64,000 nucleotides of DNA, taken from NCBI RefSeq assembly GCF_037975245.1, contig NC_092576.1:14354611-14418610 (forward strand), written 5' to 3'. The position numbers and the translations under genes were made by a program. This document shows positions 11,205 to 51,987 of this stretch, in pieces. Under the pieces are notes generated by a model, which searched no databases, was not told where the DNA came from, and was given only the letters and a program-made list of their open reading frames with translations. Numbering within the stretch: the first letter of the stretch is position 1; the number at the start of each line of letters is the position of its first letter. The DNA comes from Apostichopus japonicus (Eukaryota > Echinodermata > Holothuroidea > Aspidochirotida > Stichopodidae).

Positions 11205-11510
11205 TCCAGGGGTATATTCGTCCGGGGGTTATTTATCCGGGGGGGTAATTGTCTAGGGGGGTAATTGTCTAGGGGGTATTCGTCCTCGGGGGTAGTTGTC
11301 CGGGTGGGTACTTGTCCGGGGGGTTTTTGTCCTCGGGGGTAATTGTCCGGGGGGTTTCTGTCCGGGTGGTAGTTGTCCTGGGGGGTAGTTGTCCGGGATG
11401 GTATTTGTCCCGGGGGTATCTGTCCGGGTGGTAATCGTCCGGGGGGTTATTGTCTGAGGGGTAATCGTCCGGGGGGTATTTGTCTGGGGGGTATTTGTCC
11501 GGTCACGCCC
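11205..11510. repeat. G-rich minisatellite, inverted relative of 1319-1612
   Basis: About 17 imperfect units near GGGGGGTATTTGTCCGG, the reverse complement of the unit at 1319-1612. The right flank, cgccccaaaccgcgtgccgc (11507-11526), reappears inverted at 49936-49955. Confidence 0.9.
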
Positions 11511-12440
11511 CAAACCGCGTGCCGCGCTTTGGAAAACTTAACATTCCGGTGCTTGCAAATGACGTTTTCTTCTGGTCGCTACAAAATGCAGAACGTAATG
11601 AAACGTGGTACCTTGTTATCTTTGATCTAGACCGGACATCAATTTCTATTGTTCCACTAGTTTCAATTTAGGTTAGATGACAAAGAATCAGTGGCGGCGG
11701 AACCGGGGGGGGGGCTTGGGGGGATCAGCCCCCCATGGAAAAGTTGAGGGGGCAAATGCATGATAAGCCCCCCCCCCCCCCCCCGCAATATTTACCAAGG
11801 CTCCGAAATGTGCATCTGCCCATTTTTCAATGCATACTTGTCGATCTGTCCGATGCACACGTATACTATATAGGTGTAATAATTTTAGTAAATGCTGGGG
11901 GGACCCTCGGCCCGTCCCTTGGCTATAGACCACATTGTCACCCCAACCGCGTCTTCACGCCCCGTGAAAAGTGGAAGCAGTGAGTGTAAAGCAGTGAGTG
12001 AGCGCAACACAACTTCGTCTTAGGCCAATGACTTGCCTCATTTCAGCCAGTTCTCCAACATCCCCTGAAGGATATATCCTTCTAATGGTAGCACATTTCC
12101 CATGGATATATCCTTAAGGTACATTTCCTTCTAATTGGAGATGTATCTTTCGTAGGGTATATCCTTCTAAAGTGCCCTTATATTAAGTGTGATAACTGGG
12201 GTGCTCATTTCATTTGTGCATTGCATATGGAAAAGTTTCGAGGGATTCCTTTCATCAACGACAATCACCGCGATTGTCACAGCGGGAGGGTTTTTTTCTT
12301 ATGACATTTATTTAATTTTTGCATTTAATTGCAAGTAGTAATTTACTACACTAAAACACGTCTTTGCGAGTACACTACGAGTAATAATAGCTACTCTCTT
12401 AAACCACCATCGAATATACAAATTACAATGTTTTTACCAA
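11511..12440. other. Non-coding stretch with transposon debris
   Basis: No gene is seen. CAGTGGCGGCGGAACCGG at 11690-11707 looks like a transposon terminus and leads into G- and C-homopolymers (11704-11784). At 12068-12176 the word gatatatccttctaa is repeated three to four times in diverged form. Confidence 0.4.
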
Positions 12441-12615: not shown

Positions 12616-13027
12616 ACACATTAGCCCCCCCCCCCCAATAATTTTCCCGTTCCGTCGCGCGTGCAAAGAATATGATGACAACGAAAACAAACAAGTTGAA
12701 TAGACAATGCTTTTGACAACGTTATGTTTGTTTTAGCGCCCGTCAAGTAATTTCGTCATCGTTTGCGTGCGGCGGGACAAAGGCAATATAATTAATCTGC
12801 GGTCATGCATGCAAAACGACTGCCCATGTAAGAGTATAAAGTCTTAGCACAGAACGAGACAGATCATAATTGGCTGGGAAAAAGTTACACATTGAGCTAT
12901 CACATGTTCACTTTCCACCAATCAGATATAGATTAGTATAATTAGTAAGCTAATCTCTTAGTGTGACAACCAATCAGACGAGACTTTAAGCCCTGCACTC
13001 TAGGGAATTAGTCTAGGTTCCAAATGA

Positions 13028-13549
13028 TGGGTGCAATTTGCATATAACCACATATTCATGACTGTTGCAGGCCTGTGAAATTTTACTACACAACACTTGA
13101 TAAGGAAATAAGCATGGGTGCAATTTGCATATAATCACATATTCATGACTGTTGCAGCCCAGTGAAATATTGCTTCACAACACTTGATAAGGAAATAAGC
13201 ATGAGTGCAATTTGCATATAGTCACATATTCATGACTGTTGCAGCCCTGTTGAATATTGCTACACAACACTTGATAAGGAAATAAGCATGGATGCAATTT
13301 GCATATAATCACATATTCATGACTGTTTCAGCCCTGTTGAATATTGCTATTCAAAACACCTGACAAGGAAATAAGCATGGGTGAAATTTGCATATAACCA
13401 CATATTCATGACTGTTGCAGCCCTGTAAAATATTGCTATACAAAGTACCTGATAAGGAAATAAGCATGGGTGAAATTTGCATATAATCACATATTCATGA
13501 CTGTTTCAGCCTTGTAAAATATTCTATAAACAACATATGATATAAGGAA
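13028..13549 (+). repeat. Six-copy ~88-bp tandem array, each with octamer ATTTGCAT
   Basis: Units are spaced 87, 87, 87, 89 and 89 bp. The octamer ATTTGCAT (reverse complement ATGCAAAT) starts at 13036, 13123, 13210, 13297, 13386 and 13475 and is unchanged in all six. Also conserved are cacatattcatgactgttgc and ataaggaaataagcatg; in the last copy the latter has become TATAAGGAAATAAA (13541-13554). The array stops about 50 bp before the structured U2-like RNA candidate. Octamer sites are the classical distal element of vertebrate snRNA promoters, so a promoter role is possible but inferred. Confidence 0.85.
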
Positions 13550-13601
13550 ATAAATCAAGATAACGGTAAGGTATGTGTTAGCTACGAACAACAACTACCA
13601 T

Positions 13602-13796
13602 TCTTAGCGAGTGACCCAAACCACCCTTTTGGCTAAGATAATGTGTAGTATCTGTTCCCTTTTGAGGGGAATGGTGATACACACCTTATGATGATCACAT
13701 AGTCACAGTCCCGATGCAAGGGGACTGGGGTTGAGAGCGGATCGGTCGTTCGGTACTTTGGTTTTCGTGCCAAGGTTCTTTCCTGGGCGACTTTTT
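13602..13796 (+). ncRNA. Structured RNA candidate with U2 snRNA-like branch-point region
   Basis: Positions 13625-13657 match the U2 snRNA stem-I/branch-point-recognition region at 31 of 33 bases: CCTTTTGGCTAAGAT, a 3-nt spacer, then GTGTAGTATCTGTTC. The flanking sequence is not U2: no AUCGCUUCUCGG start and no U2 stem IIb-IV sequence. The segment can still form a row of hairpins: TCTTAGC/GCTAAGA (13602-13608 with 13632-13638), TTCCC/GGGAA (13655-13671), GGTG/CACC (13673-13685), AGTCCC/GGGACT (13707-13726) and ACTTTGG/CCAAGGT (13755-13776). A TTTTT run at 13792-13796 could terminate Pol III. It could be a divergent U2 variant, a U2-derived chimera, a retro-element RNA or a pseudogene. Confidence 0.5.
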
Positions 13797-13829
13797 CTTA
13801 TAAAGTAGTTATCAAAACATAACAAGTGC

Positions 13830-14760
13830 TTAATCAAACCTTTGCAGACGTATATGCAAAGTCGAACGAATTAGTGAGTAAACAAGTATCAACTTGAACG
13901 AAAAGAAGGAATTACAATTTTAAAGTGAACGTTAACAGAAATACGTAATTAAAAATAAATGAGTTGGAACTTACTTGCCGCCCATGAACCCTGGCCTACA
14001 AGAAGGTACAAGAAGAAAGCAAAAAGAAACTTCATCTTGGCAGGCCTAATGGACATTATAGTAAACCAATGCTGTCGTCTGGCTCAGAAGACCTTGCACC
14101 AATGGACTGCTGTCGATAGGACTTCTCTATATATATTCAATCTTTCTTTCCTTAATAAGGAAGTATAAAGGCTAGGTTGGCTTTGTGTCAGTAGAAGAAA
14201 AATGTTTGTACTACTTCTAGGTGCAGATTTTTTTCAAGAACAAGTAAAGGCGCAATTTCACGGTTGAACGTATAGTCTTGTGACTCGTTACTTCTTACTT
14301 AGGCGTGGCGTGACGTGCGGTAAGCAGACACACTATTGTATCCTACCAATAGAAATTGACAATAAAGAAACTCCCACACCAAAACATCGCGCCTTATTGA
14401 ACTTGACCTTGCTTTTTAACATGTATCACTTGCACACTTCGGTGATTTCTTAAGAAAGAAGGTTTGAATAAACGACTGCGTTATTCTCTATATATAAATT
14501 TTGAAATTTGTCTTATTTTCAAAGGAGATCTATAGGCCTACCAGTGACAATAAGGCGTCTTAAAAAATCAGATTGTGATCAAGTTATATTGATTGATAAT
14601 TTGAGGAAAACCATAAGGATATATAGACTTACAAAAATTAAATCTAAACGAAAAATCAAGTTTCAGGCGCATTTCAGTCTCGATGTTCATTATAACATAA
14701 CAATTAATATTTATATAGCGCTATTCCATCTAGATCATAGCGCTTGTGACACAGACACAA
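13830..14760. other. Non-coding stretch, nothing recognised
   Basis: No gene is supported. Small open frames at 13959-14168 and 14508-14765 lack motifs or plausible splice context. Confidence 0.35.
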
Positions 14761-14761
14761 A

Positions 14762-15660
14762 TTAGCATGGAAATAGGTGAGTCTTAAGATTACTACGAAA
14801 TTGAGAGTTATTGTCAGTTTCTCTTATAGTACGAGGGAGATTGTTCCATGACTGTGGACCGGCTACACTGAACGATTTCTGACCCAAGACCTTGTGCGTT
14901 CTAGGAACATTCAAGCGGGTTATGTCATGAGTAGAGCGGAGAGTTCTTTGAGGTGACAGTAGATTGGATAAATAAACAGGTGCAGTATTGTTCATGGATT
15001 TAAAGACAAAAAGACAGAGTTTAAACTGAATCCTTTCCCTTATTGGCAGCCAGTGGAGTTCTTTAAGTGTTGGAGTAATGTGATCTCTCTCATGGATATG
15101 GAATCAACCAACCGGGCAGCATTGTTCTGCAATCTTTGAACTCTGTCCAATTCATGTTCCGTAGCACCAAAAAGAAGAAGATTTCCATAGTCGAGACGAG
15201 AGATGACTAAAGCCCTGACGACATGATGGAGAGTTTCTTTATCAAGATATCTCTTTATTCTCCGGATATTTCTTAATTGGAAATGTGTTGATTGACAGAG
15301 GCTAGATATTTGTTTAGTCATAGTCATATTTGCATCAAACATTATGCCCAAGTTCCGAACCGACTGTGTTGGTTCAATATGTGCATAACCGATTTTCAGT
15401 AACACAGGTGGCAGTTTCTGAAGAAAATAGGGTGATCCAAGCACAATGAACTCAGTTTTGCTCTCATTTAATTTTAACTTGTTGCAAGTCATCCACTCTT
15501 GGATTTCAGCAATACACAGTCGAAGCTTTTCAATAGCATGCATGCCGTGAACCTGGTATTTTGGGGTCAAAAGAACAGTACAACTGTGTGTCATCTGCAT
15601 AGAGATGAAAGTCTAAGGCATGACGACGAATGATTTTATGGCTCCGTTGAGTTTCAGAAA
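14762..15660 (-). mobile_element. 5'-truncated non-LTR retrotransposon, reverse transcriptase relic
   Basis: Minus-strand remains of the C-terminal half of a LINE reverse transcriptase. The catalytic word YADD (in HLYADDTQLYC) is at 15601-15590 but in a different frame from the following 186-codon open segment (15600-15040), so a frameshift separates them. That segment carries LKLNESKTEF, RNLGIMFDANMTM and SRLDYGNLLLFG, typical of the CR1/L2-like RT thumb. A second break leads to the 14995-14762 frame with VPRTHKVLGQKSFSVAGPQ and WNNLPRTIR, the usual RT tail. At least two frameshifts and the missing 5' two-thirds make it dead. Confidence 0.88.
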
Positions 15661-33800: not shown

Positions 33801-36800
33801 CAACAAATAAACTGCAACCAATTGATCTATATAATACACCGTAAAGAATGCCTTACCGTCTGCACCGACCGCATATTCCGAGCCCACTCCATGGTCATGG
33901 TGAGAACATCCGCCAGAGAGCTGCTGTTGGAGAAGAGCCGGACAGACCAAGACCAAATGTTTCTCGGTGAGACCATCCTCTGGGTGCAAGCCGTGGGACA
34001 TCATCAACTCCTCGGCAGAGAAGCACTGCAGAGCGAAGAACGCAAAACAGAACGGGAAGAGAGGTCATTGAAAGGTATGAGACAAAAAATGAGCCACTCA
34101 CTCCACAGAGGAACAACGTTAGAGGGATATGGGTAGCGATTGACCATATGAAGAGACACGGTTATCACATGTGAGAAGCAATGAAGCATTCTCCTACACA
34201 GAGCAGCACTGTACTAGTGAGCAAAACTAGAATGTTAACACACATAACCTTGAGATGCTCCTACAAAGAGCAGCACTCTACCAGTGAGTAAACCTAATGT
34301 TAACACAAGTACATAACCTTGAGATGCTCCGACACAGAGCAGCACAGAACTAGTGACCAAACCTAATGTTAACACACATAACCTTGAGATGCTCCTACAC
34401 AGAGCAACACTGTACTAGTGAGCAAAACTAGAATGTTAACACGTTACCTTGAGATGCTCCTACACAGAGCAAATTGTACTCGTGAGCAAACCTAGGTCTA
34501 CATAACCTTGGGTTACAGTAACTGGTGAAGGATCGTAGGAGGTCCCCCCCCCCCCTTTTCATGATGCTTGCAACTTGTTATGTCGCTAGCTACCTAACCT
34601 TGAGATGCTCCTACACAGAGCAACACTGTACTCGTGAGCAAACCTAGGTCTACATAACCTTGGCTTACAGTAACTGGTGAAGGATCGTAGGAAGTCCCCC
34701 CCCCCCCCCCGTTTAGATGATGCTTGCAACTTGCTATGTCACTAGCTATAGCTTGTACAGTATTCAAAATGTTACATACATGATGTGACGAATTTACACC
34801 CATCTGCCCACAACGTTTTAAACGAAAAGAGTTGTTTATGTTTCATCCGTTCATTTGGTTCTTGGTGGTTTTTCATCTAAACAGGTGGAGTTTATCGCAG
34901 AACGTAGATTTAAGAATTAAACTTACGGAGTGAGCGACAGCTTCTATCCGTGACACGTTAGCGGTATCGTGAACGTGGACATCCTCTGCATGGTCATGAC
35001 CGTGATGGTCATGATCGTGGTGGTCATGGTCGTGGTTATGTTGCACTGCTCGTTTCCTCCGATGGTCGTGACCCTCATGGTCGTGGTGATCGTGATCACT
35101 ATGATCGTGTTCACTATGATCGTGGTCACCATGATCGTGGTCACCATGTACGTCTTCACTGTGTTCATCATGTTCACCATGATCATGTCCACTGTGATCG
35201 TCAGAGCTACCCAGACCCAGCTGACTCATTATAAGTTTAAAATCTGTTTGAAGTTTGAAAAAAAAAAAAAAAAAAACAAGTTAGGTAATTTATTATATTT
35301 TTTTGGACCCTTTCCACAAAATTGATCCATTTCATTTCTGTTTGTAAACCGCTGCCAACTGAAGGGCAGGGGCGGATTGTAAATCTTTCCCCGGGGTGGT
35401 GTATTTATGCTCGGTGACTTCATCTCTGCCGGCGACAGTAGCGCCGAACAGAGTCGTTTTCAGAACCCTTGATAGAACAGAAACCAAACCCCACTTCGCC
35501 AAGAACCAGAAAATATCAAACTCCACGGACGACATGACACGGTTCATGTCGGTCATATCTGCACGGCACGTTTGCGATGCTGTACCAGTTTAACAATTTA
35601 TTCCGTTTTATGAAGGGGAAGTCCTATATACGGGTATATGGAGAACTGATATGACTGATATCCCTAGACCACACGATGTGAATCCGGGAATAGCCTATTT
35701 TGCCCAAAATAAAACTTTCGACCATGGTATGATCCGTCATATCACAACCGCGCGAATGGTTTCGTGACTTTTCCCGACAGAGATATCCTGGACGGTATAC
35801 TCGGGCAGCACTCCTGATAGAACAGAAACCAAAGCCCACTTAGCCAAGAACCAGAAAATACCAAACTCCACTGATGACATGACATGATTGTTGGTCGGTT
35901 CAGCCATATCTGCGCGGCACATACCGGTTTAACGTTCTCTATATTCTCTGTCTAATATAGTTTCTTACCTTCCAGAGGAATGACGCCGTCGTGGCCGTAC
36001 AGGGCGATGACGTCTTGGATGAATGATTCTGGATCGGGGAAATCCGCCTCTCCGATGCAGTAGCCCTCGAGCAGGTAGGCGACGATGAGCGGTGAGAGGT
36101 GCTGCATCTCCCTCAAGGAGGCCCCTAGGTCTCCGTCGTAGACGTCTTCAAACAGGCTCTCTGTGCTGAAACACTACAATTGAGAAACATGTATTTACAG
36201 CAGCGGCAGTTATATTACAACTAAACACTTTTGTTTGTGTGTGTTTTTCAACAGGTTATTGCAGTTCTATTGCAGTTCATGGTACTCATGTAGAATACAG
36301 TACTCAGGACACACAGTACTCATTGCAAGCAGTATCCAGGACACACTGTACTACTGTAAGGCTACACAGCACACATTGCACACAGTACTCATTGCACATG
36401 TTCACTTAGGATACTTAGAATACAGTACCTATGACACACAGTACTCATTGCAAGCAGTATCCAGGACACACTGTACTAAGGCTACACAGCACACATTGCA
36501 CACAGTACTCATTGAACATAGGCTCAGCTCACATGGCACTCGGGTTGCATGGTTCTAACTTAGTGCACACAGTACTCAGCCCAAACAGTACTCATTGCAC
36601 ATGTTCACTTAGGATACTTAGAATACAGTACCTAGGACACACAGTACTCTTTGCAAGCAGTACCCAGGACACACTGTACTAAGGCTACACAGCACACATT
36701 GCACACAGTACTCATTGAACATAGGCTCAGCTCACATGGCACTCGGGTTGCATGGTTCTAACTTAGTGCACACAGTACTCAGCCCAAACAGTACTCATTG

Positions 36801-45800: not shown

Positions 45801-48277
45801 TGGAATTATACCCCCATACTTCGGCAAGACCTTGGAACCATAGCAGAGATACATGTACAGTATGTATTCTGCAGTAACATTAACAACTCGCTAACAGGAT
45901 ATATTTATACTCCTCCTTAAATTAGGAGGGCCAGTGCTTTCCGGAAAGTGGGGAGGACAGAAAGAACATATTTTCTAAAATGAAATTCTCATGATCAGTG
46001 CAAGTGTGTCTGGAGTACTTAGGCCTAGGCTAGCCTACCTGTATTCAATACTGTAGTCATCAATAAGCACTGGGGTATCCTGCAGTTTAACTGGTGTGGG
46101 AAGGGGATTGGGAGGGTATTGTAGGCTAACTGGCCAGGCCTAATTTGTTTTTTTTATAGGTACCGTTATTCTCTGCACACGGTACTTTCCGCTGACAAGA
46201 AATGGTGCTTTCCGCACACCAAATTTGTCAGCGGAAAACAAATAACCGTTTCTAGGAGGAGCAACTAATGTAGAATGGGACAAACTAAAACGAATGACAG
46301 CGAATGACCGAATGACAATTGACTTTGTACAGGGTAAATTATCATTGGCGAATGACAGCGAATGACAGCGAATGACAACGAATGACAACGAATGACAACG
46401 AAGGACGGTGGTGAGAAGAAATAGAATGAATAACGGAATGGAGTAAATGGGTTTATTGGTTTTCTGAGCAAAAATATGATTTGAGGAAAATCGCATGTTA
46501 CGTGGTTGTAGGGTTTTGGTGTAATTTACGGATAGAAACCACAGGAAAGATTTTGTGTGAGAATGCGCTTGAGTGCTGTGCTTTTTACCTCTGTAGATTT
46601 ATATAGAAAGATAACTGAAGCCGTTTCAAGATTATAGTATTGTTAGTTTCTAACAATTAATATCGGAAAATGACGTTAAATTTACTTTTTAAAATCACAC
46701 TTACAATTTCGCTTGCTATAAGGTGCGTTTTTATCTTGTCCGTACTATACTAGATCTAGATACCCACGAAGTCTGAACTGTGAAATCCAGTTGAAGCAAA
46801 TGTCTGTGCTGTCATTACTGTCATTCGTTTTAGTTAACGCAATTTTTTAGTGTGTACAACATATTGTCATTCGTTACGTGTAACGCAATTGTCATTCGTT
46901 TTAGTAACACCCTGTAGAATGGCTTACCAAACTGATTAGGGAGGATTTATAGGAGGATGGAAAGAACTGGCTGGAGAAGGATATAATTTGGCACCGAGAC
47001 TAGATTCTTGCAACATGGATTAGGTTCGGGAGAGGAATGATGATTTACAGTTACTATTACGAGTGGCAATGATAATTACTTTGGGTTAAAAAAACGCCAC
47101 CATATTTGGCTGCAGTTAACATTAAGGCGTGAAAAAGGTGAAATGTAGCTGCCATATATATGGAATAGTTCGTTCTTGCTAAGTTTCATGAAACTTAGAA
47201 CTTTCCGCTGAAAAATTTCTTGTTAGGAAAACAAATAAAAAAAGATAGAGCCTTTAAATACTTTACTTATTCCATGATTACGTGAGACAACAGGCTAAGA
47301 GAATACATCACTTGTTAAAAACCATCTAATTGGTCTTTCTGCAAAAAATACTCCCTAAAGTATGATGCATCATGCGTAATCATGGAATAAGTTAAGTATT
47401 TAAAGGCTGTATCTTTTTTTATTTCTTTTCCTAACAAGAAATTTTTTGGCAAAAAGTAATCAACAGAAAGCTCAGTGTGTGGAGAAAAACTGAAAAGTAC
47501 TGTTTTCATTAGGGTCTAGGCCTAGGATCTTACGCATAATTAAACTGGCACGATTATGAAGTGGCACTCTTAATCTTCCTCTAAGCTAGTCTAACAACAA
47601 TAGATTACAACTAACGTTACAACTCAACATGAACAAAGGGCACCCTGCCATGTGCAATTATTTGCTACCGTAGTGTATGAAATTAGTAGTGATAGTAATA
47701 CTAGGTCTATTCTAATGCCCGTGGTTCACTAATAAGAAAATAAGGCCAGTAAAATAAGACCTGCATCCAAAACTACAGTACAGTGGAGGGAATGCCTGAG
47801 TTTAGCATAAATTAAAATGCTCGGGGTGGCGGCTAGGCATGTGATCATCGTGATGGCGCTGAGACACGTGCTTACAATTAACATTTATGATTCATAGTCA
47901 ATTTACTAAATCATGTTTAGCCTAAACATTACTTTCTTGTTACTTACCACTGAACAGTTCGTAGAGTGGTCATCCTTCGTTACTCTCTCCGTACAGTTGA
48001 TCCTGCTCAATAGAGTCGACACCACAACGTCTAACTCATCGTAAGAGATAATGGCTGCTTCGTTTTCACTTTCAAAATTTTCTAGTACTGCATTTACCAC
48101 GTGGGTTTTCACCGACAAAAAGGGATCGATATGATCATGGTTTACTGCTCCTTCACCATGGTCATGGCCATGAGAGTGGTGATCGTGGCCATGATCATGT
48201 TGTGCTAAAACTTGGGCCAACAGGAATACTGAATTTAGCGCCGCAAAAATAGTAAAATATCTGCACACGACACCCAT
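24853..48277 (-). CDS. SLC39A4/SLC39A12-like: LIV-1-type ZIP zinc transporter (ZIP4/ZIP12-like), 12 exons
   Basis: Exons (high to low): 48277-47948, 37565-37281, 36173-35969, 35243-34927, 34025-33857, 32906-32737, 31958-31794, 30911-30822, 29915-29855, 28969-28817, 28096-27909, 24984-24853. All junctions are GT-AG and the phases join without a break into 754 residues; human SLC39A4 also has 12 exons. The protein should carry Zn2+ into the cytosol across the plasma membrane. Seen: signal peptide (1-25), His-rich N-terminus, ectodomain cysteines, an Asp/His-rich loop (288-365) containing RRKR (335-338), CPALL (407-411), GDALIH (483-488), His-rich loops between TM2 and TM3 (497-518) and after TM3 (550-557), HNFCD (613-617) and CHELPHE (641-647) forming the metal site, and eight predicted TM segments from about 437 to 745. 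The start is the first ATG before the signal peptide. ZIP4 and ZIP12 cannot be told apart without a tree. Confidence 0.96.
27240..27355. repeat. G-rich minisatellite in ZIP intron 11
   Basis: About six units near GGGTTGGGTGGGGGATG. Several runs of three or more G on the plus strand make quadruplex formation possible; the ZIP transcript would carry the C-rich complement. Confidence 0.85.
27515..27885 (+). mobile_element. tRNA-derived SINE in ZIP intron 11
   Basis: An A-box-like tgtggtcaaggcattgg (27543-27559) and a B box GGTTCGAGTCC (27581-27591) are followed by the core gtgtccttgggcaaggcac and a body ending gccttgaacaatactgtaaa plus an A-rich tail. The core is shared with the SINE at 2251-2490. 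It ends about 25 bp before the donor of ZIP exon 11 and lies antisense to the gene. Confidence 0.82.
28450..28510. repeat. Short G-rich repeat in ZIP intron 10
   Basis: Four ggatgg-like units lead into a G homopolymer (28475-28501). Confidence 0.7.
28694..28800. repeat. GAT/GGT trinucleotide microsatellite next to ZIP exon 10
   Basis: Imperfect gatgatggtggtgatg repeat starting about 16 bp inside ZIP intron 10. It makes spurious His-rich or Asp-rich frames, which should not be mistaken for the real His-rich loops of the transporter. Confidence 0.93.
30180..30275 (+). mobile_element. tRNA-derived SINE head in ZIP intron 8
   Basis: ggggctgtggccgagtgg (30180-30197, A box TGGCCGAGTGG) and GGTTCGATTCCCGG (30250-30263, B box) are spaced as in a long-variable-arm Leu/Ser-type tRNA. 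The ends do not pair into a proper acceptor stem and no anticodon arm could be assigned, so this is a SINE or tRNA pseudogene rather than a working tRNA. Confidence 0.72.
30985..31680. repeat. ~86-bp tandem repeat, 8 copies, in ZIP intron 7
   Basis: The unit contains ctgctcactcagacacagtt, gagacactgcaggtctga and ggcatgcagccaggctgcat and recurs every 84-89 bp. Each unit has the palindromes GCATGC and GCAGCCAGGCTGC. Confidence 0.93.
32968..33289. mobile_element. MITE in ZIP intron 5, 322 bp
   Basis: Termini CAGGGATGTGCTCA and TGAGCACATCCCTG are perfect 14-bp inverted repeats. CTTACA flanks both ends (32962-32967 and 33290-33295). The interior has gtgccgggcg repeats. It ends about 60 bp upstream of the acceptor of ZIP exon 6. 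Confidence 0.85.
33415..33560 (-). mobile_element. Fragment of the 37619-37882 MITE family
   Basis: gtttgcacgggttatctggg, cgacgcaatactacccggtt and cctaatttattacccgaatc match the right half of the MITE at 37619-37882 in reverse complement. It lies in ZIP intron 5. Confidence 0.75.
34195..34725. repeat. ~67-bp tandem repeat in ZIP intron 4
   Basis: ccttgagatgctcctacaca, gagcagcactgtactagtg and agc.aaactagaatgttaac recur at about 34251, 34322, 34389, 34452 and 34600. A larger block (34490-34570) is duplicated at 34635-34715, both copies with a poly-C run. Confidence 0.88.
35437..35930 (-). repeat. Duplicated ~130-bp segment with signal-peptide-like frames
   Basis: Two related segments (about 35450-35590 and 35795-35930) lie in ZIP intron 3. 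On the minus strand both read [20 protein letters not shown] followed by LSxVL, a hydrophobic signal-like start, then diverge. The gene they might start is not recognised, and no downstream exons were found. They are not part of the ZIP reading frame. Confidence 0.55.
36226..37250. repeat. Complex CACAGTACTCA minisatellite in ZIP intron 2
   Basis: A short word, cacacagtactcattgca, is arranged in a ~203-217-bp higher-order repeat (aacataggctcagctcacat at about 36516, 36719 and 36936). It fills nearly all of the intron between ZIP exons 2 and 3. Confidence 0.92.
37619..37882. mobile_element. MITE in ZIP intron 1, ~264 bp
   Basis: Ends AGTGTTTACACAGG and CCCATGCAAACACT are inverted repeats. The flanking word ttgtat appears on both sides. 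The interior has accgggtacccgagagcc near the left end and gggcgggtatcaggatacc near the right end. Partial relatives lie at 33415-33560 and 40553-40760. Confidence 0.75.
38823..39644. mobile_element. TTAA-flanked MITE in ZIP intron 1, 822 bp
   Basis: Starts AGCAGCATTTTGCGTTGGTC-like and ends GACGCAAAATGCTGCT. TTAA flanks both ends (38819-38822 and 39645-39648), typical of piggyBac- or Kolobok-mobilised elements. An internal duplication repeats gcattttgcgtttggtcgcc near 39069. A second copy lies at 50644-51264. Confidence 0.82.
40553..40760 (+). mobile_element. Fragment of the 37619-37882 MITE family
   Basis: gtggttacacaggtccaaaa and gggaaccgggtacccgagag match the left half of the MITE at 37619-37882. 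The right end is absent. Confidence 0.72.
41095..41400. repeat. ~130-bp tandem repeat, 2.3 copies, in ZIP intron 1
   Basis: cacatggtagcctaacacca and ctaagtcaatggg recur at about 41098, 41228 and 41366 with diverged intervening sequence. Confidence 0.8.
42393..43698. mobile_element. hAT-type non-autonomous transposon, 1,306 bp
   Basis: Termini CAGGGTTGGCATTTTCCC and the inverted GGCCAACCCTG at the right. A perfect 8-bp duplication GATACTGG flanks it (42385-42392 and 43699-43706). Both subterminal zones consist of repeated ggtaaaaaccgg words. No transposase is seen inside. It lies in ZIP intron 1. Confidence 0.88.
43870..44850. repeat. Dispersed GTTAACGTATGTTA / AGGACACC motif cluster
   Basis: The paired words gttaacgtatgttatg and aggacacc occur in both orientations near 43878, 44042, 44221, 44255, 44409, 44586, 44802 and 44822-44844, about 165-215 bp apart in most cases. 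It is probably an old diverged satellite in ZIP intron 1. Confidence 0.7.
46279..46912. mobile_element. Inverted-repeat element with GAATGACA arrays, 634 bp
   Basis: A left array of cgaatgacag units (46290-46406) faces a right set of tgtcattcgtt units (46818-46903). Both ends share ACTAAAACGAATGAC in inverted orientation. The 10-bp word TGTAGAATGG flanks it at 46269-46278 and 46913-46922. The superfamily is unknown; foldback-like. It lies in ZIP intron 1. Confidence 0.65.
47205..47455. mobile_element. Palindromic MITE, ~250 bp
   Basis: The arm aaaaatttcttgttaggaaa...tactttacttattccatgat (47211-47280) is mirrored by gtaatcatggaataagttaa...cctaacaagaaattttttgg (47377-47450). The RNA would form a hairpin of about 70 bp with a ~100-nt loop. 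It lies near the start of ZIP intron 1. Confidence 0.75.
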
Positions 48278-48343
48278 TTTTTTTCATTCACAGCTAGCTA
48301 GCTATACACGCTACAATATACGATCGGAGACAACAACAATGCC

Positions 48344-49403: not shown

Positions 49404-50643
49404 CGGTAGGCTACATACTGATTAGGGAGAAGTACTGTTGACCCGTCTGGGAGGCGTACGCGTTCACTGGGTGACATTCAGTGTGTATAAAGAAGAAATA
49501 TTATTTTTGTAATCTCCGAATCGGCTCATCAAAATCTCGGTGATAAACCTTGTGCATGAGGATCGTGGTCGCTGAAGCTAAATAGGAAGTGCAATTTAAG
49601 AAGTCCAGATGTTACTTAGACGTTTCCTAATTTCTCAATTCCTTTCTTTTCTTCTCCCTTTATTTGATGTTATGGTATTTCTGTATATATGTTGTTTACC
49701 ATCAACAAATACCATCAAACATAATTTATTATCATATAATATAATATATTTATCTACACATTTACTATAAACATAATTTATTAAGACTAACAGAAAATAA
49801 TTGCGTAAGAAATTATTTCATTAAAATAATTTGCATGAGCAACAGGTAGGCCTACTTTCATTACTGTCTGCATTTTGTAGCGACAAGAAGAAAACTTCAC
49901 TTGCAAGCATCGGAAAGTTAACTATATATTTTCAGAGGGCGGCACGCGGTTTGGGGCGGCGAGTCGCCAATGCCTTTATTAAAGTTAACCATGCCGGACT
50001 CTCAACCGAGCACAGCCCTATTGCATCATGACTGTGACTGTGTGATCATCGCCAATGCTGTATTTGACCACACGAGTCCCTTAGGAAAGGAAAAATATAT
50101 ATATATGGGCTGATCATAGCCAATAAGTCCGAGAAGCGAAAGTCCAACCTGTACCGGCGTGACTGATCACGCGGTGTATGCTCCGGCTGATGTTTTAGCA
50201 GGCTGTTGCATTTTGTTTAGCCTGTTACTTTCCCGCCTAAATATATAATGACTCACATTAGAACCTTATTTTTTTCATGCCACGCTTTCAATTCATGATC
50301 ACTGACATAGCAATAGGGATAACCCCCATTTTACTATACTTCCTGCAGCTTCTTGCAACGTATTGCGAAATTATATAGTAGTACTAGTTAGGATGGTTAA
50401 TTGTCATATTATAAACATACAGTTTCATGCGCTAATTAGTTGTGTCGGCTGGAAACAAGAACGCAATAGGCCTTTATATGAATATTCATAACAAAGATAC
50501 TGACCTCACCCAATACTATTGTTGTTATTGTTATCCCATTCCACTAAGGGTCATATCCCCTTCCCAAATCAGTCCGCGGGGGGGATTAAGAATTTTGCTT
50601 ACACATTTGAAATCCCGTACACCTTTCTTCCAGCAAAACTTAA
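49404..50643. other. Intergenic stretch, no gene recognised
   Basis: AT-rich. gcggcacgcggtttggggcg at 49936-49955 matches, inverted, the flank of the minisatellite at 11507-11526. No coding frame is supported. Confidence 0.35.
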
Positions 50644-51264: not shown

Positions 51265-51987
51265 AGGGGGAGGGTGGGGTGGTTGGGGGTGGGCTGGAGC
51301 ATATGGTGCCTCATGAGCCACCATGGTGTGAATCTGGCATTTCCTTCAGGTACTACTAAAGACAATATGATACCAATTTAAGGGAATATACTCATTAGAT
51401 TAAGATACTGATTTTGCATATGTTGAATCATGTATTGTATGGGGGAGAAGAATGGAGTATGAAAGACAGGCGACCTACATTATTAGTGAGATAGCACAGC
51501 ATTTTTTTTTTTTTTGCAGAATTCATTAGTTGGGATGGGCAATTAATAAAATAGTGAAAAAAGGGTATTAATTGTAACAATTTCATATATTTCTCATAAT
51601 CTCCAATCTTTTTTTTCCAACACAAATAGTCTATGTCAGAGTAATTAACTAGTTAGTAGTTTATGTCAGAGTAATGAACTAATTAGTAGTTTATGTCAGA
51701 ATGAGGAATTCCTTTGTCTATCTCCTTCAAGTTCTTCCTGTCCCCTTCCTGTTCTTGGGGTTAATTATAGTGGGGGTATCATTTTTGCCCCGACTCCTAT
51801 TGCTTGCATACACAATATTCAAGGGAAAGTTCACGAGCTGCAAAATTCGACACCTCCCAACCCCCCCCCCCCCCTCACTTCCCTCACTTCCCCTGCCTCC
51901 GCCCAAGTGACCCAAGAAAAGCGAACAACTTGATTCGGCATTCTCAACCCCAATCTCCTTATCCCCGAGACTGTAACCGTACATATA
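51265..51987. other. Intergenic stretch
   Basis: No gene is seen. A short tandem word, agtttatgtcagagtaatgaa, occurs about three times at 51630-51700. A C-run lies at 51862-51874. Confidence 0.35.

Follow-up and report, generated by a model that had tools for sequence, protein, structure and literature searches.

A SINE family with a U2 snRNA head in the sea cucumber Apostichopus japonicus, and its copies within U2 genes

SINEs with an snRNA at their 5' end are puzzling, because snRNA genes have their promoters ahead of the transcribed part, and such a promoter is not expected to move along with the RNA. U2 is a Pol II gene, and the heads of the SINEs known as SINEU derive from U1 or U2. Among other mobile elements, those of the R2 type are site-specific and are co-transcribed with the host RNA gene. 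SINEU elements are snRNA-headed SINEs known from crocodilians, as cited in PMC5753468 and PMC8010984, and snRNA heads of SINEs are also named in a passage of PMC7245038. According to passages of PMC4640811, the 3' boundary of Utopia and Keno in U2 is nt 39, Keno has an APE-like endonuclease, and Utopia occurs in sea urchins and in a starfish. A literature search on U2-headed SINEs and on SINEs or LINEs in U2 genes, mostly among open papers, gave no report of the sea cucumber family described here among the papers listed, which is weak evidence of novelty.

The window, that is, the whole stretch of 64,000 nucleotides that was analysed, lies on contig C16 of the genome that we searched (671,581,487 bases, 35 contigs). 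It contains the following features:

13625..13807, plus strand: SINE copy A, without the first 12 nt and ending AAAGTA
13625..13657, plus strand: U2-derived head of copy A, corresponding to U2 nt 13-45
13658..13807, plus strand: non-U2 SINE body of copy A, with inverted repeats, e.g. CAGTCCC/GGGGACTG, and the tail ACTTTTTCTTAtAAAGTA
13792..13796, plus strand: TTTTT run, the 5' arm of the tail hairpin in the SINE consensus (ACTTTTTCTTAAAAAGTA); the element continues past it
13602..13624, plus strand: flank outside the element, with TCTTAGC at 13602-13608; most genome-wide matches start at 13625
49999..50139, minus strand: SINE copy B, a second and much older copy starting TCGCTTCTCGG (from U2 nt 2), with 71.8% identity to the consensus in 142 columns
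51942..51977, minus strand: possible SINE body fragment, not established, from a weak match (E 0.22) in the window search

The preliminary description of this locus had drawn attention to 31 of 33 bases at 13625-13657 that match U2, and both blastn and an ungapped scan recovered the same 31/33 identities with U2 nt 13-45. This match is beyond chance: the second-best place in the window reached 20/33 in the scan, and the maximum over 20 first-order Markov windows was 22/33. The GTAGTA word is present, and we agree that neither flank is U2. Copy A matches the host U2 better than human U2, because the host gene reads GATCATG (in all 20 of the 20 fetched U2 loci, the SINE agreeing with it) where human U2 reads GATCAAG. 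In most rows of the genome search, similarity begins at position 66 of the 271-nt query, which corresponds to 13625 and is the 5' limit of copy A. Because the repeat copy spans 13625-13807, TCTTAGC is flank and its pairing with GCTAAGA is accidental; we rejected this stem, which had been thought to replace U2 stem I, as an artefact of the 5' truncation. The TTTTT run described as ending the segment does exist, but the element extends to 13807 and the run is not its terminus. No TSD was evident by eye around this copy. Just upstream, at 13027-13553, lies a tandem repeat of six copies of 87-90 bp. Elsewhere in the window, copy B scored 16.7 bits with the Rfam U2 model; two 30-nt stretches, at 11506-11535 and, downstream of copy B, at 49929-49958, are 90% identical (CGCCCCAAACCGCGTGCCGC...). 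By eye, ORFs at 14762-15612 on the minus strand resemble a LINE reverse transcriptase in its 3' part, and histidine-rich frames (HDHGHDHG...) at 34873-35280 and 47906-48283, also on the minus strand, look like ZIP zinc transporter exons.

When 13560-13830 was searched against the genome, the best 40 of 2,113 candidates yielded 44 matches: the window itself, 39 rows of 90-95% identity starting at query positions 63-72 (mostly 66), and four weaker ones. Moreover, a 41-nt motif of the body has 1,588 genome-wide matches at up to 3 mismatches, the reversed pattern used as a control having none. We preferred this count to the 499 matches of the head followed by CCC (up to 2 mismatches), which was left unused because it probably includes intact U2 genes, whose TGTTCTT end is two mismatches away. 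Relative to the consensus of the 44 copies (matches below 160 nt left out), copy A is 94.0% identical over 183 nt. It is a 5'-truncated, roughly 6%-diverged, decayed member of a recently active SINE family. The preliminary description had named many decayed, truncated genomic copies as a finding that would tell against its proposal, and the genome search found them; of its three options, the RNA head of an unknown SINE was the right one. The other two, a new U2 variant and a U2-derived regulatory RNA or decoy, amount to a functional RNA at the window locus and could draw on the strong local U2 match and on the fold. Indeed, 13602-13796 has a folding energy of -67.2 kcal/mol (z -2.47 against 200 shuffles, 2/200 being equally good), with four hairpin loops predicted, one of which uses TCTTAGC. 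Against this stand the many dispersed copies, the truncation of copy A and its distance of about 6% from the family consensus, and the dependence of the first hairpin on the flank. In addition, the covariance search that had been suggested gave copy A only 19.6 bits with the Rfam U2 model, below the gathering score of 46, and copy A is not a complete U2. Judged from its sequence, the locus looks like one among many decayed repeat copies; we rejected a functional U2 variant or decoy on the strength of these copies, and a functional RNA here seems to us scarcely credible.

The anatomy of the family is best seen in its young form. The young element is 191 nt long and consists of U2 nt 1-45 and a 146-nt body ending AAAAAGTA; in order, it reads U2 nt 1-45, TTCCCTTAGGGAA, the inverted repeats CAGTCCC...GGGGACTG and CCCAGG...CCTGGG, and ACTTTTTCTTAAAAAGT. 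Its head is identical to host U2 nt 1-45 at 45 of 45 positions, the U2 genes in all 20 fetched loci agreeing with the SINE over this stretch, and fuller copies begin with the normal U2 5' end, ATCGCTTCTCGGCC. In the 40 fetched loci L009-L048, window included, TCTCGG still precedes CCTTTTGG in 24, the rest of the U2 stretch being near-exact, and the tail CTTAAAAAGTA is found in 28, the others being truncated or altered there. The family is thus short (191 nt), non-coding and dispersed (1,588 body matches), with TSDs in 30 of 40 close copies, as expected of a SINE. ARAGORN found no tRNA gene in the three loci scanned (L069, L070 and L129), and a tRNA origin was rejected. The T4 run of the head and the T4 and T5 runs of the body would be awkward for Pol III. 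The consensus sequences of the older and the array subfamilies differ at 0/45 head and 6/138 body sites (Fisher p 0.34), and divergence among the 44 copies is similar in head nt 14-45 (0.028) and body (0.031); head-versus-body variation does not discriminate between models. SINE copies also occur in head-to-tail runs, some with nested insertions (L023, L026, L044 and C5:22560164-22560907).

The U2 genes themselves proved to be a home of this SINE. Among the 46 Rfam U2 matches listed, at least 42 lie in an array on C16, made of many 645-bp units of which some are interrupted, and at least 4 lie on C15. In three array loci (L058, L069 and L070) the upstream region is followed by U2 to nt 45, the SINE body, and U2 resuming at nt 39, so that SINE copies in U2 genes are flanked by U2 nt 45 and nt 39, a 7-nt duplication. 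The stretch of U2 nt 1-45 carries a single change in L058. In L058, L069, L070 and L124, all 220 nt ahead of U2 +1 are the same as in an intact unit; in L116 this holds for 187/188. Genome-wide, an A-rich tail is joined to U2 nt 39 in 23 places, 22 on C16 at 30.97-31.16 Mb and one on C20; these junctions of tail and TCTGTTCTTTTCAGC are of the SINE in 7/23 (L058, L069, L070, L115, L116, L124 and L129) and LINE-like in 16/23. Of the array copies, L115 and L124 are 5'-truncated, the 5' boundary of L124 lying deeper in U2 (TGTTCTTTTCAGC), and L116 has a truncated copy ahead of a fuller one. Array-type junctions read TGATCCC in L058 and TGTTCTTTTC/CGGGAATGG in L106. Over a 190-nt query, L069 shows 100% identity with at least 17 further places (best 40 of 2,725 candidates), which are spread over 9 chromosomes and lie away from the array. 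This suggests, as far as identity of sequence can indicate a source, that array copies are the apparent source copies of dispersed ones. A genome search for progeny of the U2-body junction of L124 matched only L124 itself.

One further U2-SINE combination lies on C20 (L129/L130, about 14.906 Mb, minus strand), where a U2 head, itself preceded by part of a second one, is followed by a diverged SINE and by U2 from nt 39. Its U2 3' part runs a few nt past the end of the Rfam model and is identical at 149/166 positions, and the array-type promoter is absent. It may be a retrocopy of a read-through U2-SINE-U2 RNA; a duplicated U2 gene of some age that carries an insertion is equally possible, because its 3' flank shares letters (by eye) with a C15 U2 gene. 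Tandem double U2 heads are seen both there and in the upstream flank of L027, suggesting repeated 5' additions or template jumps. One could imagine from such occasional double heads that every copy arose anew, by template switching of the reverse transcriptase from the repeat RNA to U2 snRNA, leaving no heritable composite. However, a heritable composite is needed to account for the constant junction at U2 nt 45 and for at least 18 places that share the same 190 nt, and the identical copies already contradict such independent chimeras for the young subfamily; we find this origin very unlikely.

The same site in U2 is used by LINEs. The 16 LINE-like array junctions end ACTTGAAAGAAA(A)GTA, and other array LINEs (L060, L111 and L112) end AAAAGAAA/TCTG. 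L112 codes for two proteins, one of 410 aa with a CCHC knuckle (ORF1) and one of 1,157 aa in which Exo_endo_phos (APE) and RVT_1 score above cut-off and zf-RVT just below. With these domains and its junction ...AAAAGAAA/TCTGTTCTTTTC, L112 is an APE LINE in U2 with a 3' flank from nt 39, as is Keno. In L053 a LINE 5' end lies in U2, with a CCHC-like frame seen by eye. The SINE and the 16 LINE-like 3' ends have only the terminal AAAAGTA or AAAGTA in common, and L112, the element whose proteins were read, ends differently from the SINE (AAAAGAAA). When the SINE body was compared by blastn with up to 300 nt before 27 junction rows, just 9-12 nt matches to LINE ends were found, and a derivation of the body from the array LINEs was rejected on this result.

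Dispersed copies carry traces of the same site. TSDs were sought in 40 copies from 39 fetched loci, selected as near-complete matches (those below 150 nt left out), and a duplication above the score cut was found in 30 of them. In this sample, pre-selected to be near-complete, copies start at U2 nt 1 (22 copies), 2 (11), 3 (2) or 4 (5). For the 30 copies with a placed nick (the 10 of 40 without a clear TSD being dropped), the targets have A at -1 in 25, T or C at +1 in 26, C at +2 in 15 and T at +3 in 19. This tally resembles U2 GTA^TCT, the A at -1 being confounded with the element's own terminal A. Furthermore, junctions of a SINE tail with U2 nt 39 and then CCC occur 12 times in the genome (up to 1 mismatch; control 0), 11 outside the array and one inside. 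Three of them were read, array L116 and the dispersed L097 and L108; in these two the SINE is followed by TCTGTTCCC..., i.e. it is inserted in the U2 head of another copy. L106 is likewise nested in a U2 head, with TCTGTTCTTTTCCGGG, and L104 is nested in the body of another copy, away from the U2 site. By a hand estimate, well under one nested match is expected under random insertion. The SINE is placed by U2-site-specific machinery, in U2 genes and in SINE heads alike. We infer that this machinery is a Keno-like LINE, on the basis of the common site and the common AAAAGTA end.

A likely scenario can be drawn from these observations. A Keno-like U2-specific LINE would nick U2 at GTA^TCTG (nt 38/39) and reverse transcribe the SINE RNA there. 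The body, now within a U2 gene, would be transcribed by the U2 promoter, and the SINE RNA would thus begin at U2 +1 and be headed by U2 nt 1-45. The LINE machinery could then put this RNA into another U2 gene or, with relaxed specificity, insert it at TA^TCT-like sites genome-wide. That SINE RNAs are made from the U2 promoter is suggested, at the level of sequence, by several features: the upstream region is intact and dispersed copies start at +1, the head has the length of the part of U2 that precedes the inserted body, and some dispersed copies have the very sequence of an array copy. Dispersed copies, that of the window included, lack a U2 promoter and are probably dead ends. Altogether, we think it fairly probable that a 191-nt U2-headed SINE is mobilised by U2-specific LINEs and transcribed from the U2 genes that it enters. 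We are evenly divided on the proposition that the SINE is promoterless and renews its head in each cycle, entry into a U2 gene by means of a U2-specific LINE being obligate, so that it borrows the promoter, the start site and the first 45 nt and spreads to U2 genes and to U2-like sites, its own heads among them. The lack of progeny of L124, the uninformative head variation, the little tail sequence shared by SINE and LINEs, and the position of L104 off the U2 site count against our proposal.

A more conventional U2-headed SINE must be weighed here, in which the head was captured once, an internal or read-through promoter drives the dispersed copies, and a U2-specific partner LINE leaves copies in U2 genes as by-products. 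It would agree with the dispersed position of most copies and with the absence of progeny from the truncated array copy L124; moreover, such a SINE, once inserted into U2, would end up behind the same head and give the same picture. On the other hand, the head agrees with host U2 at 45/45 positions, exactly as far as the point where array copies are inserted; at least 17 dispersed copies have the sequence of an array copy; no tRNA gene was found in the three loci scanned; and the T4 and T5 runs inside the element would be an obstacle to Pol III. We consider this model possible and rather doubtful, and we prefer transcription from the entered U2 genes. With apparent sources lying in U2 genes, the upstream region intact and LINEs of the same site beside them, this preferred reading offers a testable route by which a SINE may gain and keep an snRNA head. 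There is also a practical side to it: a young copy (L069 527-610, minus strand) scores 53.3 bits with the Rfam U2 model and so by itself exceeds the gathering score of 46, and snRNA counts may be inflated accordingly. The A. japonicus annotation reported in a passage of PMC10344927 assigns 0.02% to SINEs, and it probably misses much of the U2-headed family.

Of the systems described so far, SINEU is the nearest known kind. The sea cucumber SINE is likewise a short, non-autonomous, dispersed element with an snRNA-derived 5' head, in this case 45/45 identical to host U2 nt 1-45, a comparison in which SINEU is known from the papers that cite it. It belongs, however, to another animal phylum, and the likeness lies in the head. 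What may set it apart is that copies lie within U2 genes at the site of U2-specific LINEs, one of them exactly matching dispersed copies. With Keno and Utopia, as far as passages on them describe these elements, it has in common the U2 3' boundary at nt 39, and the array LINE with its APE endonuclease resembles Keno. Those are autonomous LINEs, whereas 191 nt leave the SINE no room for such proteins, and the common end is only AAAAGTA. Finally, the R2-type elements likewise sit in a tandem RNA gene and are expressed when that gene is read through; in the sea cucumber, in contrast, the target is U2 snRNA, and the host 5' sequence is kept as the head of the dispersed copies.
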